In this document: positions 9,701 through 64,000 of the stretch, piece after piece | Numbering within the stretch: the stretch's first letter is position 1 | How the letters are laid out: the number at the start of each line of letters is the position of its first letter | Assembly (NCBI RefSeq): GCF_949628265.1 | Contig: NC_088789.1 | Location: forward strand, 16,050,886-16,114,885 | Direction of reading: 5' to 3' | Length of the DNA: 64,000 nt | DNA from: Cloeon dipterum | Lineage: Eukaryota > Arthropoda > Insecta > Ephemeroptera > Baetidae | Notes under the pieces: model-generated | The model's database searches: none | The model's input: only the letters and a program-made list of their open reading frames with translations | What the model was told of the DNA's origin: nothing | Made by a program: the position numbers and the translations under genes

Positions 9701-9842
9701 CGTTGAGCACGACCACGGAGGCGCAGCCGAGCAAGTTGAGGAACATGTTGCCGATGAACTCGGCCAGCAGGGGCCTCCAGATAGCGCGGCGACCCTTGGC
9801 CACCACCTCAGACCATCCCAGGCGTTCCTTTATCCACGACAT
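6701..9842 (-). CDS. Prip: Aquaporin, water-selective PRIP/DRIP type
   Basis: Six-membrane-segment water channel of the plasma membrane. Coding exons on the minus strand: 9633-9842, 7696-7839, 7400-7609, 7216-7296, 6880-7014 and 6701-6808, all joined in phase 0, giving 295 residues. Both pore motifs are present: NPA in HINPAVT (exon 2) and in SSINPART (exon 4). The aromatic/arginine filter reads Phe (SLTFGL), His (ACHFSA), Ser (TGSS) and Arg (NPAR), the water-selective pattern; the mercury-sensitive Cys of vertebrate AQP1 is absent. The block GMTTVHHMLDPLQGFGMEF and the N-terminus (LLAEFIGNMFLNLLGCAS) look more like insect PRIP than DRIP. An acceptor CAG sits one base before the ATG, so the 5' UTR must come from a separate upstream exon (probably about 16446-16570). 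The last exon (35 residues) is a cytosolic tail and the least certain part. Confidence 0.9.
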
Positions 9843-31092: not shown

Positions 31093-33944
31093 TTAACCGA
31101 GGCTCTCGACCGCAGTTGTAGTGATGCCTTTTCGGCCAGTATTGATGGTAGTCTTGAATTGCTCAGGCACGGCATACTCCATCTGTAAACACAAGGACAA
31201 AATTTTTAAAATAAAACTATTTGCAACTGGCAGATATCGTACATAGTCGCCCGATTGGTCAGGAATCATTATGTTCATTTCAGAAGACTTCGACGAGATG
31301 ATTTCCACGTTTACAGACTGCTCGTTCAGGTACATTTGGCAGCCATCCGTCTTTTCCACTGTAACGGTGGGAACGGTGCCCAAAACCTGAGAAGAATTTG
31401 AATTGTTACTTAGCCAAAGGAGGTCCCCGATTTAAAACAAACCTGCATCTGCACAGACTGGCAGTTGACAAACTCAACTGACGAGACAAGCGAGTCAAAA
31501 ACTACAGCAGACTTTTTGCACGAGTCCATCACCACGGAGTTGAGCTTTCCCTTGATGGTGAGCACGCAATCCTCGCATTTGAACATGTAGACCACGTTGT
31601 TCATCTCAACCTGATCGATGACCAAATCTTTGCGGCCCTTGTGGTATTCCTACACAAATACAAAACTTTTAAGAGACAGGACTCCAGTGCAGTATAAATA
31701 TAATTTCAATGCAATTTAAAAAATAAGGTGTGCTTTAGATTACTGTCACAAAAACCAATAGAAATAACACCAAATTTGATGTCCTAAGTCATGGTTAAAA
31801 GTCGCTACTGTTTAATTTGATTAGTAGTTTTATAATTTAGTTTTGGAAATGACCTCAGGATTTTAGAATTTTGAAAATGTGTTTAACCGTTTTCCCGTTA
31901 CATGAAGTGTAAACTATTGTGAAAGTTTCAGAGTGGTTTTCTCTGTTGTTTGCAATAGTTTCCACTTAAAACTTAAACAAACACATTCTTTTACTTTTTT
32001 AAATGTTTTTCAAAAGTCCACTCCAAGTTATAACAATCAATTTTGCACAAACTGAACACCGTTAGACTCTTCTCGACCTCTCCCGACCAGATGAAGGGTG
32101 TAGGGGTGCTTACCCCTACCCCTTTCAGCCCGGTCAGAATTTTAATAGCAAAAATTTTGGGCTTAGATATATTTTAGATTATCCAAATCATTATATCAAT
32201 TATTGAAAGATAGTATTTGGAAGTGGAGCAACAATTTTTCGTGAACATATTCAAAATGGATTTTCTTGAACTTAAAGATCAAATTGTTTGTACTCACCAC
32301 AATCCACTTTTTTCCTTCCTTGGCCATGAGCGGCGGTTTGGAGACTGGCGCACTCACAGCTTTGCCTCCAGATGAAGCACTTCCAGGGGGAGCCTTGAAC
32401 GGAGCAGGTCCTGATCTGAGCGATGGGTTCTTATGAGTCTGCATGTCAGCAGTCACCTTCTTGAGTCCTTTATTAAATATACTTTAGAATCATTGTACAA
32501 AAAAAATTATATTCGGTTTACCACTGGTAATATCGGCGCCCTTATTAATCTCTGCAAAAAGTGCTGAGCGATCATTGCTGGCGTCTCCGTTGGACACGTT
32601 CAGCTGGCTCATGTCCAGGACTGGGGGAGGCGGAGGACAGCCAGGTGGCGGCGGTGGCGGAGCGCCACCAGTCGCCTGCTGCTTTCCAGCCCACACAAGT
32701 CCGGTGGTGTGGTGCTGCTTGATGAACTGCTGCAGCGCGGTCAGTGCTTGGACCCATCCATGCACCCAATCAACGTGCACTTTATCCCTACAATACCGGT
32801 GAGATGTTAAAATGGTGTGTCTAAATATTATCATAGAAATGCGTACTTTTCCTTCCACTCCTTAAGTACTCTGTTGGTGTAAAACTGGCCGGCGTCGTTC
32901 ATCTCCTTCACATAAGGTCCAGGCGTCGGTGACTGTAGATATTAAAATAGCAACTCGCGTTTTGCTTGTATCACAAAATTTACTTACCACAGCAATCCAG
33001 CCGAGAGCGGGGATGCTCTCGGAGATGGCGCTCAAGTGGTTGAACAGCTTGGAAGCGCGGTTCTTCTCGCGGAACTGCTGGATGGCCGAGATCTGGTCAG
33101 ACGTGGGTTTCAGCAGGGTCTGAAGCTGAGCTGCGGCAGGTGCAGCACTGGTGCTGGCCATCTCCAAGTATGCCCTCTGCACGCTGTAAAAATATATAAT
33201 GAGCTTCATGTCAAGCACAATAATAAACTTAATAATTCCATTTTTTAATATATGAAGAAAAATGGACATCCCTTGTTGAAAGTTGTCATTTTATTCCTCC
33301 AACAAAGCAAGTTTGTGCCATGAATTTATTCCTTATTTTCTGTGTAGTTTTGACTGTATGAATTTATTATTTTTTTACTATTCCACGAAACAAGGCAACA
33401 GTTGACATCCAAAATTAGCAGGCATAAATAAAAAAAAACACGACTCTCAATAGGAATGGCCAATTCTCTCTTCTTCCTCTAGCATATTTTTTTTAGAATG
33501 AAGCTCACCTGAATGCCTTTCGCACCAGGTCGGCGTGAGTAGCCACATCCCCTCCGATTTTCGTCGAGGCATCAAAGTACGCGGCCAGTGGCCCTTGCAG
33601 GATTTCGTCAAAAGCCTGCACTGATGCACTCATTGCGCAGATTCCACCTGCAAACCAAAAGCATAGCCAAAATTAGTTGCAAATCATCGCGAGTCGAACA
33701 GGAAAACGACGAGTCAAGCAAATAAATCAAAATCACGGACAGAAAAGTCAGGGAAATTTCAAGGGCATTCAAGGGCAGTGCAAGGCTCACTCAAAACCAA
33801 ACGAGGGGTGCACTCTGCCTTACGCGGGGGCGCCGTCGGGGCTAAAGGGGCGGGCTGGGGGCCCGGAGGCAGCATCGACTCGAGGCGGGTGGCAACAGCC
33901 TCCAGCCGGCCCACCAACGCCTCCAAAACGCCGGCATCGGCCAT
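31093..33944 (-). CDS. capt: Adenylyl cyclase-associated protein (CAP/Srv2, capulet), canonical isoform
   Basis: Cytosolic actin regulator that recycles cofilin-bound actin. Minus-strand exons: 33791-33944, 33509-33647, 32988-33183, 32847-32932, 32522-32787, 32298-32467, 31443-31649, 31243-31386 and 31093-31182; all phases agree, giving 483 residues (human CAP1 is 475). Residues 1-50 carry the N-terminal helix pattern ([19 protein letters not shown]). The helical folded domain follows ([33 protein letters not shown]). A polyproline profilin-binding segment lies in exon 5, then a WH2-like segment ending THKNPSLR, then the C-terminal beta-sheet CARP domain ([48 protein letters not shown]). The second exon also contains an internal Met ([12 protein letters not shown]), so a shorter start is possible. 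A second coding first exon at 35042-35264 is described separately. Confidence 0.95.
32085..32135 (-). repeat. Imperfect stem-loop in a capulet intron
   Basis: The left arm starting GACCAGATGAAGGG and the right arm ending CCTTTCAGCCCGGTC pair around an inner stem TAGGGGT/ACCCCTA with a 4-base loop (GCTT). It lies in the intron between the exons 32298-32467 and 31443-31649. It could be a foldback element or a small-RNA precursor; pairing is about 20 of 25 bp by eye. Confidence 0.45.
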
Positions 33945-37524: not shown

Positions 37525-38827
37525 TCACTGGTTCCTTTGGTCCTGCTGTTGCTGCTGCTGCTGGTTGCCCCAGTTGAAGCCTCCTGGTCGCTCTTCTGGC
37601 AGCGGTGCATAGTCGGCATCTTCAGGGTGCGGATCCAGCAGGACTTTGAGCAGCTGCGGTGTGCGCAGGACCCTGAATCCACCCTCCTGCTGCGGGAAGA
37701 CATCCTCAAGGAAGTAGTAGAGGTGGCCGACAGCCATGCCAATCAGGTCGACAGAGAACGCGTTGCCGAGCAGCACCGAGAAGCCCAGCAGCACCCACGG
37801 CAGATAGGGAGCCTGTGGGATTGAAATTTATTTTATTTTTTCTCTGATTATGTTCAGAGGAATCAGAACTAAAATATTTTGAGGTAAAAAAATTATAATA
37901 AATAACATTGGCACGATTGGTGGAATTATGGCTTACGTGGAAATTCAGCAGGCCGAAAAAGTTCATCTGAACGTAGGGATTTCTTCTCGACCAAACGTAA
38001 ACAAGCATAATGGTGAACGCCTGGCCCAGGAACAGTAAATTCACGAAAAACGCACAACACTGAGAAAAGTTAATGATATAGCCCAAAATATACAATTTGA
38101 ATGGGAAGCATACAATCATCCAGAAGCCGCCGAAGAGGAACATGACGACAAAATCAGCTGTTCGTCCTCGGAATGAACCTTCCTCCAACATCCGACAGTA
38201 TCTGTACGTGAAGATCATGTTGAAGAAGAAATTGAATCCTATCGTTCCGAAGAACAAGAATGTCGTTACAAGTCTCCATAGCTGAAAATATGACACGAAG
38301 CTGATGAAATGAAATTATTACATCATTTTTCAAGCTCCATACCTGATATTGTTTGACTATGAGAATAGGGTTGAAATACAGTTGAAAGGGGGACACCAGA
38401 TCCAATTGCTAAAAAAAGTAGAAACGCAAATTAAAAGTAGGAAATTTACAATCGTAAATCAATTCATTTTATCCAGCGCAGATCAAATTATGAAAACACA
38501 CTATGTTAAGAGTTGTGTACAAATGTATGACATGTTGAATAACAAAAAATTACTGAATTCCAATTTGGATGAAGTTCATTCAGAGGTTTCCTCAATGGTC
38601 AGAGTGTTTTAGACAAACTAGGACGTGATTTCACGGAAGAGAACTGCTCTTCCAACGATGACTTTAGAGTTTTTCGTGTTTTTTATTTTAACGAAATCGA
38701 AAAAATGAATAGGGACTGCAGTTTTGAAACTTACAACAGCTATAGTGGTGACGACGCAGGCTGTGGTGTACGCCCTGGTGACAGGGGGCATCTGCAGGTA
38801 CTCCTGCCTGAACGTCTGGTACGCCAT
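37525..38827 (-). CDS. DERL2: Derlin-2, ER-associated degradation pseudorhomboid
   Basis: Multi-pass ER membrane protein that helps retrotranslocate misfolded proteins. Five minus-strand exons, 38735-38827, 38343-38408, 38114-38281, 37937-38059 and 37525-37812, all phase 0, give 245 residues (human DERL2 is 239). The start [25 protein letters not shown] matches only Derlin-2/3-type N-termini in layout (shown here as family-typical residues 1-20 and beyond). Further signatures are QLYFNP, the WR motif ([12 protein letters not shown]), [39 protein letters not shown] and [16 protein letters not shown]. The tail contains [13 protein letters not shown] and then a run of seven glutamines where family members usually carry the glycine-rich SHP box that binds the p97 ATPase. 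No active-site Ser/His pair is expected or seen. Confidence 0.95.
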
Positions 38828-39905: not shown

Positions 39906-42900
39906 CTAATATGTGACATATATTTCGGCTTTAGGCTGACAAAAAAAGTATGGAACGGTTAGAACATCCATCTCGCCGTATGGTATTGACTTCAAATTGT
40001 AAACGCCAACACCAAAAGGACCCCGAAAACCTTTGGGCAAGTAATAGACGGTGCTTTCGTATTTCACCAGTAAATCGTCATCGGATAACAGTGGGTCGAC
40101 AGTATCATGATTGCTGCACCACTTCTCTTCATCATTCAGCGAATATGTCTCATCAAAGAAATTATCATTTTCTAATCCTTAAATTATGGTCGAAATGTAT
40201 CAATGAAATAATTTAATCTATTAAACAAGTAAGTATTGATTACTTTACCTCCCATCCAATCGGCCAGGGCCGATATTTCCACTTGGTACCGAACAACTGG
40301 CAAGTGCATATCCAGAGAGCAACAATATTTAAAAGCATCTGCGAATTTCTGTTGAAATATTTTAATAACAACGTTGCTTTTATTGATTTAGTGTTTCATT
40401 TACATGCGCGCCTCTTTCAGATTTATACCATGATTCTCTTGCGTAAGTCACAGCTGAACCTCCTTCAGCAGCTTTTTAATTGTGAGAATTAAATTGAATT
40501 ATTAATTAAAATATCTAATGTATATGAAACTGACTCATTCCTTCTTTGAAAAACGTTGCTCTTCGCGAAGTCTATATAAATGCGAGTGTTGCACATAAAA
40601 AATATTTCCAATTTGTCAATATAATCATTACATTCAACCTGCATTCGGACTCCAGATTATTTTTACAAATACGACCAACGGGTACCGGAATCTGAAATAT
40701 GTGACAAATATCAAGTGGTGGTTGAATATATAAAGTCGTTACTTTTTCGTCAACTGGTGCATCATCCTCTTTTTGCACAGCAATCACCCTTCTAAATACA
40801 TCAGGTGCCTTCTCTTTCACGCATTTGTACAAGTTGTACGCGTTCTGGCACTCATCAGCCGTTGGAACTTAAGAAATATTTAAATAGTTAGAGGTGTTCG
40901 ACTTCCCACCATTATAATTATAAATACTTCAACATATCTGTCCTAACCTTGCTCAGATTTGCATTTGATGACAGCATTTGTTCCCTTATCAAAGTTTAAA
41001 CTTGCGTCATATTTTCTAATAAGGCGAAACACATTTCCCTCTCGCAGTGTTCCATTTACAAGCTGTTTTTTTATATAAACTTTTTATATCTTATAAAATT
41101 CAATTGTTTGTAGCAACCATTCCTAAATTGTCCCCGAGGCATTTCAAATAACACTAAATTGTATTATTATTAAATAAGATATTGGTTATGCAAATTCATT
41201 TTGTTTCTCAAACCTTCATCGGATCTGTGTAATCGTTAGAACTGTAGAGTTTATTTACTTCATCTGTAAGCAAATTAAAAAATTTAAAAGAAATTGAGAT
41301 ATATATAATTCAAAAAAAGAAGAAGCAAACCATCGCTAAGACCGATCAGGGAAATGCATTCCTTTTGCACAGCTTCAACTGTAATGCCAGACTGACGCAC
41401 CTTTAAAGATTAAATTTGCTTGTTTAGTGAGCAACCACCGACATGATTTCAATTTCACCTCGCAAATGTATCGCTTTTTGGCCTTGCACATCGCTGTCTG
41501 CAGAGTAGTCATAGCTGAGTAGCCGCTTGTTTTCACCGTCACGCAATGTCCCCTCTTACTGTTTGGTTCACCGGCGGCCCAATTGATTTCGTGCTTGAGG
41601 AACGCTCTGTCCACGGAACACCATCGGTAATTGCCTTCGCAGTCCAAATCAGTGCCGGATGTCCAAAACTCGCCACTGATGCCACTGAAGTCTCTCGTGA
41701 GTTTGGCCAGACACTTGCGCTTGGCTGTAGTTTTGATGGAGAGGAGCTTCATACCGAGTGCACAACATCTTTCGCGAGCGTCGTAATATGTTTCCTGTAT
41801 AAAAAGCAAGTAAGATTATATTCATATTTTCCTTAATGTTTTTTAAATTAATTGAAGCGGTAGTAAATTTTTGTAATTAATGCAAATTAAGTGATGCCTT
41901 TTTAATAATTCAAGAAATATTTATAGCATAAAACGTAATAAAGTTTATTTCATGCAGGAAAATAAAACTCTTTAAGAATAGCCGCACTGTACTCACATAT
42001 TGTTTTGAAAACATAAAGTATCTGCCACATTTCGACGCCCATATACTGTTACTATATCTGTCTAAAACTCATCGATGAAAAACACAAATCAGATTGTCTC
42101 TTACTTCATAGTGTACCTTTTAATATATTTTCCCCTTTTGAGTTGAATTTCGAAAGCACTTCCTGGTCAAGTATCGGTACATGAGTCTTCAGCAAATGAA
42201 ATAGTTGTATAAAATTTACGTTTCTCTTGCACTGATGGTTGCTGTTGCATTTCTTCGTGCATCGAGGGTTTCCCACCTAATATTGAAAAAAATATATGAA
42301 AACAATTCATAATCAGTCTTCTCACAAGATATATTGCCAGTATATTTTAAGAATTAAAGCGCAACACGTTTTAATTATATCGAAACTTTTCTTAGACTGC
42401 GCTTATCATGAAATAAATAAGCGATATAAATATAATTTTATTGATTTTTGCTAAAATTATGAAAGGAAATTAAATAGACTAATAAAATGATACTTGACAA
42501 ACCATCATATCCATAGGCTTGACGTCCATTGATTCGCAGGCTAAAAAGACAGGCGTATTTTGAGAGGTCTCATTGCTGTCACACGAGACGCTGATAAAGG
42601 AGGTCCTCGTTTGATCGCCGGTCACCATTGCAACGCAGTGGAAGTCGTCTTCCCCTTGACTCCTTTGCAGGTCTGTTTCGTAGTCCATTGGTTCAGGACT
42701 ATCTTTGTTGCACCACGACCACATGTCGTTCAGCTCGTGTTTGAAGCCACCAGTCCAATAAATTACTTCTGGTTTGTCTCCTAAATACGGAAATATTTAT
42801 TGTGACCAACACCGTTTGAGGAAAAAATTACTGGTCATAGTGCTAAATGTTTCCTTTATTTGTGGAAAAATCACAGGCTGCATTCCAATTGAACAACATG

Positions 42901-44131
42901 TTCTCCAGTTGTCTGCCCAGGATAATTGCTGAGTTTTAAACTTAAATTTTGATCAGCTCTTTATATTATTATTTCTCCACTTGCCATCTCTCCCAGTAAA
43001 AATGTCTTGTCTTTGATCATCGCATACGTTCCGTAGTTGTTGGGGTCTTTAATGAAATGAGGTAAACATTTTCGGTGGTTTAGTATTTCCCTAACATACT
43101 CAGAAGTGCTCCATCACTGCCGAAAAGGGATAGCTGAAAATATCGGACGAAATTTATTGCAGATTTTTTTGATATTAGAAACATATACACTAAAAACTCG
43201 AGCAACAAGAAATTACTATAATTTTTTTACGTTTTTAAAACAAGCGTCGTAGCAATCAATTCCCTAAATATACATATTTATTTATAAACTAGTAAAATAT
43301 TTAATTAATTGTTTCATACGGCTTCAATATCAGGAGCGCTCTCTACAATGTCTTTTCAAACAGATAATTATTAAATACATGTTATTATCCTTGTTATCAA
43401 TATTGCTACTTTAACGGGGGGTGTTCTATTAAATTTGAAAAGAAATTGATAAAATAAAATTATAAATTAATTTAGAACTTCATCAGGTGTAAAGTCTTCA
43501 ATTATGGTTTGATTGATCAATGCGAGTTATAGAGAAATATCGCACCGTCAAGTGCCGATTTTGCTTTGGGCTGAGGTCTCTTCTTTGTCACTTTGATGAT
43601 TTTAGCAGTTGTGCTGGTTTTCTTTCTCTCTCTACCTTTGGGAACCGGTGTTGTCTTTTGTTTGATAACTTTCCCAGCGTTATTTAGCTTTCCAGATTTG
43701 CCATTCGACTGTCCCTTTTTTTCTGCCCCCTTATTGACCTTATTACTTGCATCAGTGAGAGTGATGGTCTGCAAAATTTATTTATTAACAGTAAAGAGAA
43801 AACGTCAAAATTGATTAAATGCTATTGAGTGCATAGCATAGGTGTGCTCTCATTTATTAGATATTATATATGAATGCAAATTTCATTTTAATAGGGTTTA
43901 AAGTGCATTAATAAATTAAATTTTGTTCAATGAAAATAGTAATTTCTTATTTGTTAAGACGAAATAATAAAAGAGTAGGATTAAAAAATCTGGCCAAAAC
44001 CATGAGAAAGGTTTTTATGAATAAACGTCAGAATTTTTAAGGATTTGATTTTGAAAGCAATAAACTGACTAGCCTCTTCATACCACTATAATGAGGATCA
44101 AGCATGAGGATACGACGCTGGGAGGTCTCAT
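39906..44131 (-). CDS. Secreted C-type lectin / odorant-binding-protein chimera, copy B
   Basis: A 742-residue model from 22 exons: 44084-44131, 43546-43768, 43320-43342, 43231-43263, 43100-43133, 42985-43046, 42832-42928, 42503-42780, 42220-42276, 42117-42162, 41997-42061, 41459-41794, 41331-41400, 41214-41263, 41118-41153, 40948-41062, 40743-40867, 40632-40691, 40535-40571, 40404-40471, 40249-40348, 39906-40171. All phases agree. Order: 16-residue signal-like exon (ends CLILIIV), Lys-rich linker, CTLD1 (LSWADNWRTCCSIGM, YWTGGF, MWSWC), cysteine spacer, CTLD2 in one exon (CCALGMKLLSIK, FWTSGTD, AAGEPNS), six-cysteine OBP domain, second spacer, degenerate CTLD3 (CCSLDMHLP, EKWC, FFCQP). The CTLD2 EPN motif is kept but no WND motif is seen. 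Exon 6 uses a GC donor. Exon 1 rests on similarity to copy A. Function (secreted glycan and small-ligand binding) is inferred. Confidence 0.82.
40743..41400 (-). other. OBP (PBP/GOBP) domain module of copy B
   Basis: Exons 13-17 of copy B. The six cysteines are spaced C-x25-C-x3-C-x40-C-x10-C-x8-C, inside the classical insect OBP range (25-30, 3, 36-42, 8-14, 8). Key segments: AVQKECISLIGLS, MKCYLKCLGDNLGM, GNVFRLIRK, AVIKCK, DECQNAYNLYKC. The module is 132 codons, enters in phase 0 after CTLD2 and leaves in phase 0. There is no start codon context or signal peptide at its beginning, so it is not a nested separate gene. Confidence 0.85.
42929..42984 (-). other. GC-AG intron in copy B
   Basis: 56-base intron between exons 6 and 7. 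The exon ends GAGATG and the intron starts GCAAGT, the strong form typical of GC-AG introns; it ends CTCAG. Using the GT two bases further in would shift the frame and lose the LSWADNWRTCC block. Confidence 0.75.
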
Positions 44132-44643
44132 GTCCACGCAAGAACTGATCTGACCAAAGCAGTCGAAGTTGCCAGCAAATTCCTTCTATCGCATCTCTAG
44201 TGTTAAACAAGTAAAAAAGAGATATCACAGGATGTTGAAACGTGCACGCGTAGAACACGGGATTCAAGGCCCAAACTGAAATGTTTTACAGGAAATCACC
44301 AGTCCCGTACCATATCCTATCATTTCTGATGAAACTTGTCAGCCATTTGCAACGTTTCAACTTGATTTCCACAACACTCAGCAATAGTTTAAATTGATGA
44401 AATTTTTAACAGAAACTTGCAATATAGCCTGCCGTAAATGATTTCCAAATATCGAAAATAAATTTAGAATTATTACAATATGTTAAATGAATTTATTTAT
44501 CTATTCAAATCATAAAAATAAAACTATAGTTTCAAACAGAATAAAACTTTCAATGCGGAGATGAGCATTTCAAAGACATTTTAAACTGCTTAGCTCCTGC
44601 TCCAAGACTTTTCTTGATTGCCTGTTTCTTCATTATTGGGTTG
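44132..44643. other. Intergenic upstream of lectin-OBP copy B
   Basis: AT-rich sequence that should contain the promoter of copy B. No clear TATA box was placed and no other coding exon recognised. Confidence 0.4.
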
Positions 44644-44786
44644 TTATACCACTCGCACTGGACACCCGGTCTGCGGCACAGTATTCCACTCCTTAAAGGC
44701 GTTTTATGACGCGGTGTTTCCTAACTAACAATAAAGAGTACCTCTCCGATTTCGCTCATTTCGCATTCTTTTACAAATGACAAAAA
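44644..44786 (-). pseudogene. Orphan exon-like pair between the two lectin-OBP genes
   Basis: On the minus strand, a 45-base segment 44742-44786 is flanked by an acceptor (TTTCCAG) and a donor (GAG followed by GTACTC). After a 50-base gap comes a segment from 44691 to a stop at 44644. In phase 0 they read FLSFVKECEMSEIGE, then EWNTVPQTGCPVRVV. Another frame of the second segment stays open longer and is Cys/Lys-rich (CRRPGVQCEWYNNP). It follows the polyadenylation signal of copy A, has no start codon, and may be a remnant of a third paralogue or an alternative 3' exon. Weak. Confidence 0.25.
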
Positions 44787-44920
44787 CTGGAAAGTCGAGC
44801 AATGAAAAAAGTATGTTTAGATTTATAGGGTAAACAAATTATCACAAACAAAAAGTTAAACCATTCCCAAATTATTGTTTATTCAAACACAAACCAATAA
44901 ATTTCCTATATTTCAATTGA

Positions 44921-47900
44921 TTACATTTCACCAGGCTGGCAGTAAATGAAAGGAACTGTGGTCCTGTCCATCAGTGAGTACGATACAGAACGCAGTTTGT
45001 ACATCGAGTACACGGCACCCTGTCGAGACATCAGAAAGCTGCTCTCTTTGTCCAATTTAAAGCTGTTATCAGACATGCGTTCATCGAGGATAACATCATT
45101 GGTGCACCATTTTTCTTGGTTCGTGTTCGGATCCGTGTATGTCTCATCAAAGAAATTGTCGAAATTCTTTCCTATTGCGTTTAAAATTTAAAGGATCATT
45201 GCTGTTTTAATTGATTTATGTATATCCTACCATCCATAAAGTCGTAAATAGTTTTGAATTCATCGTACGTTCTGGCATTAGGTAGGTGCATGCCCAGGGC
45301 GCAGCAATAGATATATGCAGCAGCAAAGGTCTGGGGATAGTGTGACAATAATCAAATATGAAAAGAAAAGTAAATTTCATTACGTAATTTCCACTCTTGG
45401 ATTTGTACCATGTTGTAGAAGAATTGATTGCCAGAGATGCTCCTTCATTGGCTTTTATGAATGATTGACGTGTTATTAAAATTTTGTACAAAATGATTTC
45501 ACTCTGATTGACTCACTCGCTCCAGTCTTGTCGAATAACGCTTTGACTGTAGTCTATGGCAATAAATTTTTAAATAAAATGCACATATATTTAAGTGAGA
45601 AATCAATACATTCAACGTGCACTTCAAGTTCATGTTGTTGTAACAAGTTCGTGGTGCTGTAAAATCAATAGGAGAATTGTTCTAAAATGTATCAGATTAG
45701 AGTTTGAACAGATATGAGAAATGTTGCTCTTTACATCCTCAGATGTGACTTCTTTGTACACGACCATTTTGCCAAACACAACAGGTGCCTCTTCTTTCCC
45801 GCACTTGTACATGTTGTACGCGCTCTGGCACTCATCACCATTGGGATCTTAAAAATCATCTTTACGTCTGAAATTCATGAATATCAATATATAAATTCAC
45901 CTGATTTGGCTTTGCACTCATCAATTGCTTTGTAACCCTTGTCCATGTCAGCTTGCTGGTTAGATTTTTCCATAAGACGCATCACATTTCCTGCTTGCAG
46001 TGTTCCATTTATAAGCTATATATTTAATTACTCGTTTTTCATATTTATTTTGAGGTGTAACATGTAAAAAACAACCATTCCTAAATTGTCTCCAAGGCAT
46101 TTCAAGTAACACTGTATATAAATAGGATTTTGTTTAGCAAAATTTAAATTTATGATAATTTGTCTTAACCTTCATCGTGTAGGTGTAATTATTTGTATTG
46201 TTGAGACCATCAACTTCCTCTATAAGAGTAATAGAATTAAATTTGCTTAGCTTGAAAATTTTGACATATACGAGGGCTTAGACCCATAAGGGCAATACAC
46301 TCCTTCTGCACAGCTTCAACTGTGGTTCCAGACTGACGCACCTTAAATTATAAAATTATGATCGACCTGAAATCGCAACGTAACATTTATCTTACTTCGC
46401 AAATGTATCTCTTTTTTGCGGTACACTCTGATGTCTGCAGAGTAGTCGAAGTCGCTTGGCCGGTTGTTTTTGTAGTCACGCAATGCCCTCTGTTGCTGTT
46501 TGGTTCTCCAGCGGCCCAATTAATCTCGTGCTTGAGGAACGCTCTGTCCACGGAACACCAGCGGTAATTGCCTTCGCAGTCCATGTCCGTGCCAGATGTC
46601 CAAAACTCGCCAGAGATATCATTGTAGTCTCTCGTGAGTTTGGCCAGACACTTGCGCTTGGCTGCAGTTTTGATGGAGAGCAGCTCCATGCCAAGTGCGC
46701 AACACTTTTGACGGGCCTCGTCAAATGTTGCCTGCGACGTGATTTCAAGTTGTATTTAAAATTTTATATTCTTATTTCTTTAACATCATGAATGTCAACA
46801 ACTCGTTTAATTAAATAGTGAAGTTTTAAAGAAATCAAAGATAACTTAATTTTGTCGAAAAAAGAAAAGATAAATACTTTGAATGGGTGGAAAGGAAAGA
46901 AGAAAATTTGCCACAAGGACGAGGTTATAATATTGGAGCAAAAAATAAGTAACTTTGAGAAGCACAGTCCAGTCGGCGTTGCTGCAAAATTAGGAAATAA
47001 CAGGATATCAACCCAATTTTTCAAATAGGCAAACAATAGAGCCGCGTCAATTCCCAGATTCATAAAATAACTTTAATTATTAGGATTTAATTTCTGTCCT
47101 GCTTAACAAAACGGTTAAAATAATGGAAAGCTTTAAGCTGTTTTATGAATGTTATAATAGCATGCTGTTCAATGGTACTCACTGTTCCGTTCGAAAAAAG
47201 AAAATATCTGCCACATTTAGACACCCATCTGCCATAAGTATATCTCTCTAAGGAAGCAAAATATTAAATTTAATGCACAGTAAGCTCAAATATTATAATA
47301 TACTTTCTAAAACCAGCTCGCCGCTCGATTTGAATTTGAATAAAGTTTCCTAATGAAACAAATGCCAATGAACAAAGAGCTTTTAAAATAATCTAATTTT
47401 TTACATTTCTTTTGCACTGGCGGTTGTTGTTGCATCTCGCAGTACATTTAGGATTTGCTATCTAAAAATAAAATTAAATAAAGTGTTGCAATGCTGCACG
47501 TTTTGCATTAGAGCTTTTTTAATGCAGCACTAACCACCAGATCATTGGTTGTTTTATCGATCGATTCGCACGCTAAATTAAGCGGCTCCGAGTCTTTGGT
47601 CTGGGTGATGTTGCAAAAAACATTGGTCAAAGTAGTACTTATTCCAGCGCCAGCAGTCATGATGATGCAGTTGAGGTCGTTATTATCTCCGTTGCTGCTC
47701 ACGTCTGTCATAAGGTCGTTGTCGATGGGCTCAGGACTGTCTTTTGTGCACCATGACCACATGTTATTAAGCTCGTGTTTGAAGCCACCAGTCCAGAATT
47801 TCACTTCTGGATTGTTCTCTAAATTTTCTCGTTGATTGCAATTCATAAAATCATACACTTAATTACGTGTGTTGGCGGTAAAATCGGTCACTTCCTTTGA

Positions 47901-50830
47901 CTCTGCGAAAATCACTGGCTGCATGCCGATCGCGCAACAAGTCATCCAGTTTTCTCTCCAGCTCATAGGCTGATGTTTGAATGACAGTTTTATAGTTTAT
48001 TGTATAAGAAAAACTCGAGCGTATTTTCGACTTGCCATTATTCCTAGCAAATATGTCTTGCCTCCGAACTCTATAAACGTTCCATACTGGTCCTTATCTG
48101 AAATAATAAAGCATTCACCTTTTGGCCTGCTCCTTCATGACCAACCCACCCTTAACAGACCCACTGGCGGTCAAAAAAGTCGACTAAAAACAAGATTTTA
48201 AATTTTAAACGGAAAAATATGTTTTAAATAAATAACTAAACATTAATGAAAATAATTTACATTAGGGTAGCAGGCATCATAGCAATCGGATCCCTAAAAG
48301 TGCAAAATTTAAACGATCCAACTGACGCATGACACAAGATATATCTTACAGCCTCAATATCAGGAGCATTTTCTGCAATACATGAAAAATATAAAGAATT
48401 TAATAACTTCCTTGACTATAACTTAAAAGTGATTATTGTTCGAATTGTTTAAAGCCGGTTTTTAAAAACCCGGGCGAAAAACATTGGTGCCCAAGTGGCC
48501 GCAGAGGAGTTTGTGGGCAATGTGGGCCCAAGGTTGCAATCATTTCGGATTCACGCACCGAGGTCTTTCATTGAAACGCCAGACATTTGTCCCTAAGGCC
48601 GCTGGAAAGATATGCGAAAACTAGCAAGTAGCGAGTTAGCGCCGGTGCTCCTGCTGCTCCCAGCCCAAATAAAAAGAGCTCGCTTCACACCAAGCATTTA
48701 ATTCATCTGACAAATACTCAAATATCTCCTATTGCCTTGGCTGTATATGTACATATAATGTTACATAAAAAATATTACCAAAAATATTTTCTGTCAGTGC
48801 GATCGGCAAAAGGATCACAAAATCCAAAAATTAAAATTAAACATATCGAACAAAACGAGCTCAGAGTTGTAAGAAAATAGTTTAAAATTGGATTCGTCGT
48901 GGTGGCGCATTGCTCAACAAACACACAAGTAGTGTCAATTGTTACATTGCTGCTTGCCCTTTTCTTACAAGAAGGAAATTCGCTTTTGGTTGTTGAGCTA
49001 TGAGCCATTTTTTCGCCACCACGACGGAATCTACATATTTTAGATATGAAATAATATTTCCCTACCGTCAAATACTGTTGTCATTGCTGATGCTGTGCTC
49101 ATTCTTCGCCTTTTTGTTGTTGGTTTGGTGGTGGTTTTTTTTCGTCTTTTGGTAGTTGGCTTCTTTGTTGTGCGCTTGTTAGAAGCTTTTGCAACGCCGT
49201 TCACATTATTAAGCTTTGCAGCGGTGTTCACACTTTTCGCGTTGCCATTTTTCTGGACCCTTTTGGTGTTTGGTTTTTGGTTAGTCTTCTTCTGAGCATC
49301 GACCAAAGTGATTGTCTACAAATTTCGAACCATTTTTAAGAATACTTTGAACTCTGTATATAGCTCAAAATTGATCAATTTAAAAAGATCCGCACTCTGC
49401 TATTATAAATACCTTTTGTCTTATATATGAGATAAAATACATCCAATAATGTTACCAGATATGTATTTTTAACACATTTTATTCACGAATTGGACAGTTT
49501 TGTTCTTAAACTATTTTCCGAAACCGAAATACTAACACAATTTCAGAGTTGGGAAGGAATTCTACAATTCTACAAACAAATTTTGAATTGAGCTTGGCTC
49601 CATTAAGACGCTTTATGGAGTGATTGTGTTGGTTTTATACTATTTTAACTGTTCCTTGCAAACGAAATTTTTACCCATTTAATATTAAATTTTGAGGAAG
49701 TATAAAGCAAATTATTTCGCAAGGTTAACTAAAACGAAAATAATTGTGCTTTAAGGTCTAAATCAATTTTTTCCCTGGTGAATGAAAATCTTCGAAATAT
49801 AACATTGAACTTGTTTAAGATTCTAAAACAGCCGGAATGATTTGTGTAGATAAATCTTAAATTTAACCTTCAATCGACCATTTTTACGTTTTTTCGATTT
49901 CTTTAGCGATTGGCCTCCGAAAACGGTTTTGGATGTTGTTTAGTAGCTCGAAATTCATAAAACTGAGTGATCCACATACTCATTGTCTAAAAGTGAATCA
50001 GCCAAAGAAAAAAGTCGACCGTCGTAAATTCTTAGTAATTAAAGTAACTTATGAACAAAATCTTTTAATAAGAATTGAAATTCCGGACCCTCGAAATGAC
50101 AAAACGTCATCTTTATTGCTCTTCAAAAGTTTCAACTTCTTTTGACAAAATCAACGAGTTTATAATGGGCGGAGGATAAAATTCCGTATAAAAGACCAAT
50201 GTGCGCCTGATCCTCTATCCATATCCAATATTTTTTCCAACGCTTCAAGCAGAATTACGGGATTATCCCGAATATCCTCTGTAAAACACATATTTAACTT
50301 CTATAAAATTTTTTTCCACCTAATGAGCATATTGTTGAGCTTTTTTTTAATTCGGTTTTCAAAAATTAAAATTTACATATATTATGTGCAAGTTTTTAGC
50401 ATAAATTTAATATTTATTAACGCACATCTTTCTCTTTTTTTAAAATTTGATCGATTTTGGATTGAATACTCAGCAAGAGCTGCTGATTTTCCCTATTTTA
50501 CGAACGTGGCTCGTGATTTGATGCCGTGTCCTTGGGGAATCTGGTAAATAGAACGCCAACATGGTGTGTATTGTATGTTTCTAATCAAGCTCAAAAGCTG
50601 ACCCTTCAGCAAACTTCAGCTATTAATTAAAAACAAGTGAAACTGTAAGTTTATCACTGAAACATTTATCAACAGATTTCATGATAATTGAAACGATGAA
50701 GCACACTTCGCTTTGCAGTCATGAAAGGCAAGCGTTTATAGATACAATAATCTAGAAAAATTCATATCATTGTATTACTTACCACAATAATGAGAGTTAT
50801 GCAAAAGATGAAGAGGCTGAGCCACTTCAT
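44921..50830 (-). CDS. Secreted C-type lectin / odorant-binding-protein chimera, copy A
   Basis: A 750-residue model from 22 exons: 50783-50830, 49066-49315, 48350-48372, 48261-48293, 48150-48183, 48036-48097, 47867-47969, 47535-47818, 47405-47461, 47304-47349, 47183-47247, 46396-46731, 46272-46341, 46170-46219, 46076-46111, 45901-46015, 45735-45847, 45610-45681, 45517-45553, 45384-45451, 45231-45330, 44921-45171. All phases agree. Exon 1 is a signal peptide (MKWLSLFIFCITLIIV). Then: an Asn/Lys/Thr/Arg-rich linker with KKPTTKRRKK-like repeats; CTLD1 (MSWRENWMTCCAIGM, FWTGGF, MWSWC); cysteine spacer (CTARCNNNRQC); CTLD2 in exon 12 (CCALGMELLSIK, CEGNYRWC, GEPNS with EPN); the OBP domain (exons 13-17); spacer (CYNNMNLKC); CTLD3 (CCALGMHLP, EKWC, FIYCQP). 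AATAAA lies at 44883 to 44878. It is the tandem paralogue of copy B with the same exon layout. Binding roles are inferred from the domains. Confidence 0.86.
45735..46341 (-). other. OBP (PBP/GOBP) domain module of copy A
   Basis: Exons 13-17 of copy A, 128 codons. The cysteine spacing is C-x25-C-x3-C-x40-C-x10-C-x8-C, the same as in copy B for all intervals. Segments: AVQKECIALMGLS, MKCYLKCLGDNLGM, GNVMRLMEKS, AIDECK, DECQSAYNMYKC. Two Asn-x-Thr/Ser-like sites (NNTNNYT) precede the second cysteine. Both flanking introns are phase 0. Alpha-helical OBPs bind hydrophobic odorants or pheromones; the ligand here is unknown. Confidence 0.88.
47970..48035 (-). other. GC-AG intron in copy A
   Basis: 66-base intron between exons 6 and 7: exon end AATAATG, intron start GCAAGT, intron end CATCAG. 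It is at the homologous position of the GC-AG intron in copy B, and both donors match the strong GCAAGT form. Confidence 0.75.
48891..49031. repeat. Inverted repeat (foldback) in intron 2 of copy A
   Basis: The left arm 48891-48920 begins GATTCGTCGTGGTGGCG and ends CTCAACAA. The right arm 48990-49031 begins TTGTTGAG and ends CGCCACCACGACGGAATC. The arms are complementary apart from a one-base difference and an internal loop, with about 70 bases between. Just outside and inside there is a second complementary pair (TTGTAAGAAAA at about 48868 and TTTTCTTACAA at about 48960). The arrangement suggests a small foldback/MITE-like element or a hairpin transcript; no target-site duplication was identified. 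Confidence 0.6.
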
Positions 50831-52305: not shown

Positions 52306-54232
52306 ATGGAGGAGATGAGTGTCACCGTTTCCGAAAAAGTGAGCTTTTTCTATTAGAATCAGTATATATTCGCTCAATTTTGTTGCACGAGAACCAGTGG
52401 TGCGACTAGATCAATTTTCAAACCAGGGAAAATTATTTTTAATTTGCTACATATTATTCTTCAGTGTTAATAGATATTAATTTTTCCTCTTCAACGAACC
52501 TTCTCGTCAATGTCTGGTTGTAATTTAAATTCTTTTTCCAGGAGGAATTTAATACCGATTTTAAACCAACGCCTCTGACAACCCTGACCTCTTATGATGA
52601 TTTGGACAACGAGGATCTTTACACGAAATATAAGGTATAGATACGACCGTACCAGACCGTACTAGAAAACAATAATATCATACAATAATAATACCCCATT
52701 GATTTTCACTTCACGTTGAGTGGAATATTAATTTTCAAAACATTGATTTAATCCGATTTATGCAATGTAGAAGCTGCAAATGCAACTTGAATTCCTTGCT
52801 GTCCAAGAGGAATATATTAAAGATGAGCAGAGGAATTTGAAGAATGAATACCTGCACGCCCAGGAGGAAGTCAAGCGCATCCAGAGTGTGCCCCTGGTCA
52901 TTGGTCAGTTCCTGGAGGCAGTTGACCAGAACACTGGCATTGTAGGAAGTACTACGGGTAAGAATACAACGCTAGTAATCCATAGCAATTTGAATTTAAC
53001 AATAATTAAACATCTTTTAAAGGCTCGAATTACTATGTAAGAATTTTGTCCACCATCGACCGAGAGTTGCTGAAGCCCTCAGCCAGCGTTGCTCTGCACA
53101 AACACAGCAATGCACTCGTGGATGTACTTCCTCCTGAGGCTGATTCCTCCATTTCCATGCTTCAAGCAGGTGAGCAACGCAACTAAATGTTAATTATTTT
53201 TATATTTAAAAAAATCCATAGGAATATCAATACGTTTAATTTTTTCATCTCAATAAATTATAGTTAATTTAGATTTTGTAGTTTTAGTTTTGAAACTTGA
53301 GTTTGACGCTAATTTAATATTATTTCTAGATGAAAAGCCAGACATCCAATACGCAGACATCGGAGGCATGGACATGCAGAAGCAGGAAATTAGGGAGGCT
53401 GTGGAGTTGCCCTTGACTCACTTTGAGCTCTACAAGCAGATCGGCATCGACCCTCCGAGAGGAGTTCTGATGTACGGCCCCCCTGGCTGCGGCAAGACTA
53501 TGCTGGCCAAGGCAGTCGCCCACCACACGACAGCTGCTTTCATCCGAGTGGTTGGCTCCGAGTTTGTGCAGAAATACTTGGGTGAAGGACCTCGCATGGT
53601 CCGCGACGTCTTCAGGTTGGCAAAGGAAAACTCGCCCGCGATCATCTTCATTGATGAAATTGACGCGATCGCAACCAAGAGGTTTGACGCCCAGACCGGC
53701 GCCGACAGAGAGGTGCAGCGAATTTTGCTGGAACTGCTCAACCAAATGGACGGCTTCGACCAGACCACCAACGTCAAGGTAATAATCTAAATCCAATCTG
53801 GATTGATTTTTTTCTATAAAATCTGTTCCAGGTCATCATGGCAACTAACCGAGCCGACACCCTCGACCCTGCTCTTCTCCGCCCTGGTAGGCTGGACAGG
53901 AAAATCGAGTTCCCCCTTCCCGACAGACGGCAGAAGCGTCTAATTTTCTCCACCATTACGAGCAAGATGAACCTGAGTGATGAAGTAGACCTTGAAGACT
54001 ATGTGGCGCGACCTGATCACATCTCAGGCGCTGATATCAATGCTATTTGCCAAGAGGTGCGATCTCTACATTTTCCTTCAAGTAGAATATTTATATTTAA
54101 ACATGGGTTATTTTCCAGGCTGGCATGCATGCTGTCCGAGAAAATCGATATATTGTTCTGCCTAAAGATTTTGAAAAGGGCTACAAGAATAACATCAAGA
54201 AGGATGAGTCTGAGCATGAGTTCTACAAATAA
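52306..54232 (+). CDS. Rpt3: 26S proteasome regulatory ATPase subunit Rpt3 (6B/PSMC4)
   Basis: AAA+ ATPase of the 19S base that unfolds ubiquitinated substrates. Seven exons, 52306-52338, 52542-52634, 52771-52957, 53023-53169, 53330-53778, 53832-54056 and 54119-54232, in consistent phase, give 415 residues (human PSMC4 is 418). The N-terminal part has the coiled-coil segment ([20 protein letters not shown]) and the OB-fold region ([21 protein letters not shown]). The ATPase has Walker A GPPGCGKT, Walker B IIFIDEID, the pore-loop area [13 protein letters not shown], sensor [20 protein letters not shown], and C-terminal helices ending HEFYK, which keeps the hydrophobic-Tyr-X motif that docks in the 20S ring. 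AATAAA follows at 54258-54263. Confidence 0.97.
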
Positions 54233-54263
54233 GTTTTTTCCCGCAAGTATTTGTCCTAATAAA

Positions 54264-55391
54264 TCTAAAAATTGCTTTGGTTAAATTGTGTTTTTCATTA
54301 AATGATATAACAATATAAAATTATTCAGCTGAAGTTTACATTCATGGTTGCAAGTTCATAAATTCTTTAAATTACTTGTACTGTAAATTAGAAAAATGAG
54401 CCATTAACAAATTTCCTCGCTCAAGGCCAAAATCTAAAGAATATTTCTTAAAATAAAAAATGACCAATCAATCGATTCGTCATGTCAAGTTAAGTCTACC
54501 TATAAAATATCACAATTGAATGAAACATGGCTTCAATTTTCAATTTGAATCATTTCACATGATGAAATCCATAAGGATTTTTTAACTTCAGTGCGCCATA
54601 ATTCGCTAACTCCATCAAATCAAACACTCTAACTCTTAACTCGTTGGACACTACACGGTTAGGCAAAAAATAAAACGTCAAATCCTTAGAGTGTGTAATT
54701 TCTTCCATAGATCGTCGCAACATGATTATTAGAAATAAATTTACACTTAAAATTTTTTACTTTTAAATATCATTTATTGCAAATTGCATTCAGTAAACAA
54801 ACTTTGGCATGAATATAGTTGTTACAATTTTAAAACAATCAAGCGAACGTTTCTGTAGAGCCCAGGTCAATTTTGGCTTTCCAATAGAGGGTGGCGATTC
54901 ATAAGTTTAATAACTACTAGCTAGTTGTTTCCAATCAGAGTATAGTTAGGACAATGTAGTCGAGTTTTTTTTTGGAATTAACACCATATTTTGCGTTATA
55001 AATGCTGCAGAACTAGCCTACCTTTTATAATGCATTTTTTAACAAATTGACTTTTCCGTCACATATCCTCAAAAAGTGTAAGATGCTGTGGGTTATATTA
55101 ATTATTGCATTACAATTTTAGCGTGAACTGTTAAAAAGGATATACATGGTTACGAGTATGCTTGGTTTTAATTAATCAACACAGAATTTAAATCGCCGAT
55201 TAGGAAAACTGGGAAATTAGTTTTGTCTACTGCTAGGTTGAGTTTGATACCGGCTGCTTGTCCAATAGTTTTATTTATTTTTCTACTGCGTATTTTTAAA
55301 TTCAACTTGGGGTTGTAGGACAAAGGTTGCTATTGTGTGTTTTTATTAGTTTCTTGTATTTTTTCTGTATTGGAAAATCCACTCACTTTAA
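54264..55391. other. Intergenic, tail-to-tail spacer
   Basis: AT-rich DNA between the convergent Rpt3 and TMTC1-like genes. It contains no recognised exon, RNA gene or repeat. Confidence 0.5.
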
Positions 55392-61558: not shown

Positions 61559-63694
61559 TCAGGGGCTGCTGCGTGCCGCCGGACTGTGCTTGATTCGAGG
61601 GTTCAGCATCCTCAGCGGGTCCTTTTGGTATCTCGCGAACACCTCCCTCTTGAAGATCTCGAAGTTGCGTCTGTTGAGGCTGTTCTGCCGCTCGCGCCAT
61701 CCCGGCCGGCTCTTTTTGTTCTGCAGGCCCCAGTGCACGGTGAAAATGGGGCTGAGAACGCGGAACTGGAAGCCGGCGACGAACGTTTCGTACACCTGCG
61801 GACATTTACGGCCCGAATTACAGCTACGTGACCACAATTCGTTATTTTGTTTTCGACGCCACGCGCGCAGCTGCGTTCATTTCGGTAAAAGCAAAAATAC
61901 ACATTTCCACCCCACACCCGAAAAACAGCATCTGCAGCCAGATAAACTGATGAAACTAACGAGAGAGCAGAGCGAGCGGCTCGTGTGTCGATGTAAATTT
62001 TGCTGCGCCAAACCCTCTCGCGTTCGCCAAACAGCTATTCGTGCACCGTTTTTTGCTCGTTGGCAATCTGCTCGGCCGGCGAGTCTGATTAATGTGAGCA
62101 GGAATCGCAAATTACGTTTTGCATTCGCGTCAGTTCGCGACGTCGCAAATTAACTGCGTCGTTCAGAGTTTTAAACACAGTTTCGGATATTTCCGTTGCC
62201 GCATAATGAGAAATTTATTCAAAAAGCCGCTTAACTTTATCCATTATCTGCCCATTGTAATGGCAAATAAATTGTTTCCCCTTAAAGCGGAATTGCCGCA
62301 ATTACACATTTGCATAAAATTAGGGGTTGCAGTGCCTTGGTCGCGGGAAGGAGATTTAAGTGTGCAAAACAAGCATGCTATACGCGTTTCAAGAATTATT
62401 GCGTTCAGATATTAACTCAAAATTAAATCTCTGCCATTAATATCTCTTTGTAACATAAAAATCATGTTTCTAGAGCAGAGTAAAACTCAAACGATTGACA
62501 ATTTTTGTATTATTTTCCAATCGTCAAGGGAAAATTATATGAAAATATGAATTAATAAATTTCAAGCTATCTAAACTATATAAAAAACCGTCTAAAAATT
62601 CCAAAACCATTCATAACCAGTCCAAAATTTCGTGAAATTGGCTAATATTTTGAAAAAGAAAGTCTCTCTTAGTGTTCTTAGTATTGAATAATAGGTGAAA
62701 TTGTTGTTTTTTTGCATAAAACCCGTGCGATTTGAATGAAAACGACGATCTTCAAATCTAAGAATCCATCCAAATTAGACTTATTTGATCCAAAAACAGT
62801 AAGATTTTCTTACAAAGGCTGAATTACGCAGTGTTAATCATATTTTTAGAGTAAAAATAATTGGCATTTTACACGTGAATAATTTTAGTATGTTTATCTA
62901 AAAATTTTAATGCTCAAAAACAATATAAATAAAAGAATATGTAATCATTCAAACTCAGAAAAAAGCTCCGTAATTTACATAGGATTCACTAATTAGATTT
63001 TTTTACAAACCTGAGTGTTTCTTGTGTAGCCGTAACCTATGAAACGTTCGTCGTGCGCAGGTACCGTGTCGGATGCCACATAAAAAGGCTCGTACAAGAA
63101 CTCAAAGTTGGTTACATTGTGGCTGACATGGACCTCCGGATTAATGTCTGGCGCCAACTGCCATCTGAAAAATGGAACGAAGCTGGGGGTTTTACTCGAA
63201 CAACCTGCATTTGTAAACCTTTACTTTGTGAAATTTGTAGCGAATTGATTATAAATGAAGACTTTTTGGTGAAAAGGTCGCGCGAGGCCCTTTTTGGCGA
63301 GCCTCACCAACTCAGACTTGTTTTGCGGAAAGCGCACGCGCTCGTCCAGTTCGTACGTGGGGATCACAAAGGCGCAGAGGCCGTCCGGACAGTGTTGCTT
63401 GCGCAGGAACGCGTCCAGCTTCTCGGCCTGCTGCCCGCTTGGCACAATATCCACGTCCGTTACGAACACGTAGCTCGTCTGGCAGTTCCTACGCGCCAGG
63501 TTGCGCATGTGGTTCTGCGGGTAGGGCAGCTTGACGCGCCAGCGCGCCGCCTCTGGCCTCCTATGACGCATCAGCAAACGCAGCGACGCCTCAGGCTTTG
63601 AGCAGTCCAGCTTCTCATTCTCCATGCCTGCCGACATTCGCGCCTCGGACGTGAAGCTCGGGTGGTCTCTTGGAATGGCAACGTGGAAGGTCAC
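61559..63694 (-). CDS. B4GAT1: Beta-1,4-glucuronyltransferase 1, C-terminal exons (partial)
   Basis: Golgi glycosyltransferase (GT49) that adds glucuronate to xylose and so primes the LARGE-dependent glycan on alpha-dystroglycan. Three minus-strand exons are present: 63225-63694, 63011-63164 and 61559-61795, giving the last 286 residues. Signatures: LPYPQNHMRNLAR, the metal-binding DxD in VTDVDIVPSG, FVIPTYELD, FPQNKSELVRLAKKG, then EPFYVASDTVPAHDERFIGYG and TFVAGFQFRVLSPIFTVHWG, followed by a basic tail. The first exon here begins at an acceptor, so the cytosolic, membrane and stem parts lie beyond the right edge. The tail after YQKDP (about 20 residues) extends past the usual family end. 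Confidence 0.92.
61796..63010 (-). other. Intron of B4GAT1
   Basis: 1.2 kb between the exons 63011-63164 (donor GTTTGT) and 61559-61795 (acceptor CCGCAG). AT-rich in the distal part; open frames on both strands carry no recognisable domain. Confidence 0.6.
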
Positions 63695-64000
63695 CTGTCC
63701 GAGGGGAAAGCGCAAACAGATGCATTTTCAGCAAATGATTAATTATTGGATTTAGCTGATACTCGATCACAGCTAATTATCTAAAAAATTAGATGTTTTG
63801 AAAATAAAAATTGCGGGTGTATACTTCCTAAAATAGTTTATGAACTGAAAACTGAACTGTGAAATTTGTGTAGTTGGTTGTATTTCTCCAAGAACTTGTT
63901 ACAATGAATTGTAAATCGGTGTGGAATGGCAAGATTGGCAAAAACGTAGCTGAGTAAAATAATTAATTTATTTTTATTTTTGTAGAAGTTCCGTTCAAGT
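63695..64000 (-). other. Intron sequence of B4GAT1 at the window edge
   Basis: AT-rich sequence ahead of the acceptor (TCGGACAG at 63702 to 63695). No coding exon is seen up to the window edge. Confidence 0.5.

Follow-up and report, generated by a model that had tools for sequence, protein, structure and literature searches.

A large family of mayfly genes joins an odorant-binding protein domain to C-type-lectin-like domains

Does an odorant-binding protein (OBP) domain form an internal part of a lectin-like protein in the mayfly Cloeon dipterum, or have separate genes been merged on paper? This question is raised by a 64,000-nucleotide stretch of DNA, analysed as a whole and hereafter called the window (C4:16050886-16114885; contig labels C1-C5 refer to the analysed C. 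dipterum genome), in which two genes appear to encode three C-type-lectin-like domains (CTLDs) with an OBP domain between the second and the third. Descriptions of OBPs portray them as small carriers that occur free. Ordinary OBPs stand alone and comprise ~120-170 amino acids (aa), according to the introduction of a study on another mayfly (PMC13205551). Judged from the genomic sequence, the lectin-OBP chimera is real, and the sequence contains the fusion itself, a signal peptide with a cationic linker, a six-cysteine OBP domain and about 100 loci that join CTLD2 to OBP. From these features we infer a function as a secreted scaffold that holds a ligand-binding OBP.

Both genes are on the minus strand in head-to-tail order, and by splice-site inspection a frame-consistent set of 22 exons was rebuilt in each, as the first-pass annotation had proposed together with the domain order. 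Copy A (44921..50830) encodes 750 aa in the order signal peptide, basic linker, CTLD1, CTLD2, OBP and CTLD3. Its exon 1 (50783..50830) contains the start codon and the signal peptide core, and exon 2 (49066..49315) the end of the signal peptide and a linker rich in Lys, Arg and Thr. These are followed by CTLD1 in exons 3-8 (47535..48372), which is identified by a profile match to CTLD2, CTLD2 (PF00059) in exons 9-12 (46396..47461), the OBP domain (PF01395) in exons 13-17 (45735..46341), and a divergent, putative CTLD3 with the stop codon in exons 18-22 (44921..45681). Copy B (39906..44131; 744 aa) has the same architecture with Pfam support. It possesses its own exon for the start codon and signal peptide core, placed as in copy A (exon 1, 44084..44131), followed by the basic linker (exon 2, 43546..43768), CTLD1 (exons 3-8, 42503..43342), CTLD2 (PF00059; exons 9-12, 41459..42276), the OBP domain (PF01395; exons 13-17, 40743..41400), and CTLD3 with the stop codon (exons 18-22, 39906..40691). 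The linkers are cationic, with 21-23 Lys/Arg per 80 residues, and Thr-rich; 33 cysteines and 4-11 N-glycosylation sequons were counted in the protein sequences.

The exon phases of the two copies agree throughout, exon by exon. Exon lengths are equal in 16 of the 22 cases and differ by multiples of three in exons 2, 7, 8, 17, 18 and 22, and the proteins are identical at 398 of 726 aligned residues. All introns are GT-AG, except for intron 6, which has a GC donor (GC-AG) in both copies (47970-48035 and 42929-42984, minus strand). The OBP cassette is flanked by phase-0 introns in A and B. The ratio of non-synonymous to synonymous substitution rates (dN/dS) between the copies was 0.28 overall and 0.26-0.34 for CTLD1, CTLD2 and OBP, with CTLD3 being saturated. 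The copy A protein is letter-identical to the NCBI entry “uncharacterized protein LOC135943983 [Cloeon dipterum]” (P0001), whereas copy B had no protein entry of its own among the 4467 candidates of the protein search.

The identity of the OBP domain is supported by several lines of evidence. Both copies contain one stretch, and thus no tandem double OBP, that matches the PBP_GOBP family PF01395 (5e-14 and 52.8 bits for A; 7e-13 and 49.1 bits for B; curated cut-off 22). They also match Lectin_C, PF00059, above the curated cut-offs (6.5e-08 for A and 1.6e-09 for B), with CTLD2 as the best stretch. The six OBP cysteines with classical spacing, which the first-pass annotation had noted, are all kept in both copies (25-3-40-10-8). 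When the OBP domain was folded alone, the predicted structure adopted an OBP fold (pLDDT 81.6, pTM 0.77), and the best 40 Foldseek matches of this model were all OBP/PBP structures; D7 structures occurred among the fold matches. AF2 modelled the full-length protein poorly (mean pLDDT 46.4, pTM 0.30), and only the CTLD2 region of that model was used, which matches CTLD structures. No OBP structures were among the best 50 matches in each fold list of the full model, as these lists fill with CTLDs. In profile comparisons, CTLD1 and CTLD2 scored 97%, in contrast to <0.3% for each CTLD versus the OBP domain. The putative CTLD3 reached 92.7% to CTLD1, and 85% to CTLD2 over only 28 columns. The domain alone thus belongs under OBP, and the whole protein is not classed as one, because the domain is internal in 744-750 aa and has no in-frame start before its first cysteine.

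That two adjoining CTLD and OBP genes were merged into an artificial gene model is an idea that could draw on the small size of the exons and on the fact that the window models depend on inspected splice sites together with an NCBI prediction. It is nevertheless contradicted by the join itself, and we assign it a negligible probability. Intron 12 between CTLD2 and OBP has a length of only 54 bp in copy A (46342..46395, minus strand) and 58 bp in copy B. Traced upstream in its own frame, exon 13 is preceded by a stop codon at a distance of three codons in A and four in B, and this frame contains no Met ahead of the first OBP cysteine in either copy. Hence, the OBP exons lack an independent in-frame start and the fusion first proposed from the sequence persists. 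A genome search with a 93-aa junction-exon query, in which the best 150 of 373 candidates were scored, retrieved 96 top loci (E ≤ 1e-32, 60-100% identity) without any internal stop, 95 of which extend past the first OBP cysteine. Because the end of CTLD2 and this cysteine share one stop-free frame in 95 of the 96 loci, no splicing assumption is needed to recognize the fusion there; the junction intron is missing in this big family. The joining exon is furthermore under purifying selection (median dN/dS of 0.18 over 80 pairs, none >1), and the identical domain order occurs in a second genus, as described below.

The copies in the window are therefore members of a much wider family. Eight further rows of the junction search with 31-37% identity that reach into the OBP part (seven on C3:13.74-13.78M and one on C5:13.18M), and a partial row at C5:30631624, were not counted among the 96 loci. 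A search with the entire copy A protein, scoring the best 60 of 586 candidates, yielded at least 66 matches, including a cluster at C3:8.76M and a copy at C5:31.19M. The OBP domain alone had 64 matches at E ≤ 1, and each of the 55 located outside the window genes follows a CTLD2 exon that lies on its strand within 2 kb upstream. In seven of 12 inspected loci, the CTLD end was in the same open frame as the first OBP cysteine. With OBP core exons as the query, 181 matches were obtained; each of the 150 listed follows one of the 96 junctions, and none of these 150 was upstream of its junction or on the other strand. Conversely, at least one OBP core exon was found downstream of 88 of the 96 junctions, or of 90 after adding the OBP-domain matches. 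The median distance from the junction to the exon with OBP cysteines five and six was 465 bp (79 junctions with this exon among the matches listed).

Thirty loci of the big family were fetched for exon parsing, and 28 were parsed (all except L068 and L069). The CxxxC exon with cysteines two and three and the C-8-C exon with cysteines five and six were present in all 28, and the last CTLD2 cysteine and the first OBP cysteine were equally far apart in 30/30 loci and in copies A and B. The exon with cysteines five and six was matched in 21 of the 30 loci and had a median dN/dS of 0.32 over 27 pairs, none >1. A spliced member matched PF01395 with 2.3e-12. Reading further downstream revealed CTLD3 exons in L055 and L057, and CTLD3 was matched in 12 of the 28 parsed loci; its absence from the others is uninformative, because the loci end ~1.5 kb after the junction.

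Additional chimeric copies comprise three on C3, whose OBP exons were recognized by eye, one on C5 and two at C4:31.1M, one of which was read in sequence. Altogether, at least 98 chimeric loci were found, including these copies as well as A and B. This and the other locus counts are minimum values, given the searches performed, and refer to one assembly. The pair in the window is thus indeed a tandem pair, but not an isolated one. Junction loci form large tandem arrays, and two of them with equal scores, which lie ~6.4 kb apart (C4:29309342-29309617 and C4:29315753-29316028), are probably the result of a very recent tandem duplication. With a family of about 100 fusion genes, many OBP-like genes in this genome are parts of far larger proteins.

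A divergent type is represented by the C. dipterum protein P0010, whose PF01395 match (23.4 bits) barely exceeds the cut-off of 22 and in which the third cysteine is missing by eye. A query of this type detected 40 more loci (at C2:0.48-3.15M and 35.35M, at C4:34.6M, and on C5 and C1), 38 of which are multi-exon, with the exons in order in 37 of them. A CTLD row of the junction search lies directly upstream in at least nine of the 40. A genome search with the PF01395 hidden Markov model (HMM) found one exon at E ≤ 0.001 and four at E ≤ 10, and cannot be used to count OBPs because the OBP exons are too short. The one exon belongs to L001 (C3:3625362-3625665), an OBP gene with no CTLD by eye in a 3.2 kb stretch and no close relative in the genome, which looks like a stand-alone gene.

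All matches in protein and profile searches came from the baetids C. dipterum and Neocloeon triangulifer, with eight proteins at E ≤ 0.001 among 4467 candidates in the former and nine at E ≤ 1e-10 among 7990 scored candidates in the latter search. The full domain order of copy A recurs in P0003 from N. triangulifer and P0005 from C. dipterum, so that the search of proteomes suggested by the first-pass annotation returned the same architecture. P0002, P0004, P0006 and P0007 are shorter models (P0004 and P0007 being C. dipterum proteins), and the family includes P0009 and P0010 from C. dipterum as well. P0008 from N. triangulifer is a multi-CTLD protein in which five Lectin_C stretches and, at E ≤ 1, no PF01395 were detected. 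Among 59 candidate proteins of ~410-1310 aa, an OBP domain was found only in the baetid fusions P0001, P0002, P0003 and P0005, in a search of limited sensitivity. The P0009 model (948 aa) omits the OBP exons that carry cysteines two and three, and Pfam reports only Lectin_C for it. Here the automated annotation hides the fusion, and broken models of this kind could explain why it was overlooked.

These findings bear on the published OBP repertoire of C. dipterum, which with 191 genes, 167 of them complete, is the largest set described and was identified via Pfam-based HMM and TBLASTN searches; 82 of the 167 are expressed in gills and 25 are gill-specific (PMC7250882). OBP199, OBP219 and OBP260 have been localised to the gills. 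The term “lectin” is absent from that paper's main text. Other described sets comprise 10 OBPs (135-252 aa, signal peptides, 6-8 exons) in the heptageniid mayfly Parafronurus youi (PMC13205551) and four in a damselfly (PMC5381652). The first-pass annotation knew of no described OBP-lectin fusion, and we also found none in the titles and abstract starts searched, a search that left supplements and most subscription papers outside. Since at least 98 chimeric loci exist, plus 40 divergent ones, the published record-size repertoire may be largely chimeras, the two sets being linked by size and method and not gene by gene. If this is true, the record count may depend largely on chimeras counted as OBPs by domain search, and gill OBP expression as evidence for chemosensory gills may depend largely on multidomain chimeras. 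OBP-expressing cells may then secrete tethered lectin-OBPs and not small free carriers. We see an even chance that baetids possess a new class of tethered OBPs, which goes back to a single OBP-CTLD fusion, comprises at least 98 loci (~138 with the divergent type) and accounts for most of the record repertoire, and that the gill and nymphal “OBP” expression largely reflects the secretion of OBPs on a lectin scaffold, fit for capturing ligands under water.

As to origin, a single event would have placed an OBP gene, introns included, after the CTLD2 exons of a mayfly gene with several CTLDs. That the last CTLD2 cysteine and the first OBP cysteine are equally spaced in both window copies and in the big family speaks for a single fusion, and the multi-exon structure of the P. 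youi OBP genes fits the joining of a whole gene with its introns, not of a retrocopy. The CTLDs and the cationic, Thr-rich linker may hold the protein in an extracellular matrix such as mucus, cuticle, or the gill or sensillar surface, where the OBP pocket would take up small hydrophobic ligands from the water, and the protein would act as an immobilised or multivalent OBP. Calcium-dependent sugar binding by C-type lectins involves an EPN or QPD motif together with WND. Copies A and B contain one EPN (in CTLD2), no QPD and no WND, and the EPN position reads HPx in 30/30 big-family loci. Glycan binding, and with it the glycan tethering first envisaged for these proteins, is therefore doubtful, and the anchor may instead bind protein, lipid or an acidic polymer. 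On balance, we moderately favor a secreted multidomain protein with an OBP domain between CTLDs that arose by a single fusion, works as an immobilised or multivalent OBP and makes up much of the published repertoire.

Other functions were considered. The chimeras could be immune or recognition lectins, whose CTLDs recognize microbes or other cells while the OBP delivers or senses a lipid, and whose expansion reflects an arms race and not chemosensation. The multi-CTLD architecture, the large tandem arrays and the top Foldseek matches of the (poor) full model to mannose receptor, Endo180, DEC205 and PLA2R are in line with this idea, which we still regard as unlikely given the incomplete EPN/WND-type site and the low dN/dS values reported above, which do not point to diversifying selection in either of the two exons analysed. 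A structural secretion for cuticle, egg coat, mucus or a silk-like matrix, with the OBP helix bundle as a ligand-free, disulphide-rich building block, would suit the abundant cysteines, the Thr/Lys-rich linker, the N-glycosylation sequons and the weak OBP match of the P0010-type member. We consider it slightly less likely still, as the window copies retain all six OBP cysteines and the predicted OBP fold, and the exons with cysteines two and three and five and six are kept in every parsed big-family locus. The linker and the final part of CTLD2 contain basic clusters, which might also hint at a chimeric precursor from which proteases release the OBP after secretion as an ordinary free OBP. However, those in the linker are N-terminal of CTLD1, away from the OBP borders, and the invariant CTLD2-OBP spacing is unlike a free cleavage linker, which makes such a release quite improbable.

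The window contains additional genes around the pair. On the minus strand, these are aquaporin (MIP) exons in two open reading frames (7226-9959), the second match of which is below the Pfam cut-off (22.5 bits), an exon matching a CAP N-terminal domain (32865-33290), a Der1-like (DER1) exon that closely follows copy B (37709-38314), and an exon of Glyco_transf_49, a glycosyltransferase for dystroglycan (63224-63727). AAA ATPase exons are located upstream of copy A on the opposite, plus strand (53257-54281).

Compared with known systems, the window proteins resemble classical insect OBPs (PBP/GOBP, PF01395) in the six-cysteine spacing, the PF01395 match, the predicted fold and the multi-exon module, and differ from them in that the OBP domain is internal and has no signal peptide of its own. 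D7 salivary proteins join OBP to OBP, as do, to our knowledge, the other longer forms of OBP. Double-domain or dimer OBPs, such as those of Nasonia (PMC3428353), and D7 proteins thus show that OBP domains can occur as parts of longer secreted proteins, whereas the window proteins join a single OBP to CTLDs. With multi-CTLD proteins, such as the mannose receptor family and N. triangulifer P0008, they share the tandem CTLDs, but they carry an OBP domain between them, which P0008 lacks by the PF01395 search. A large family with the OBP domain built into a lectin scaffold represents a new use of this domain.
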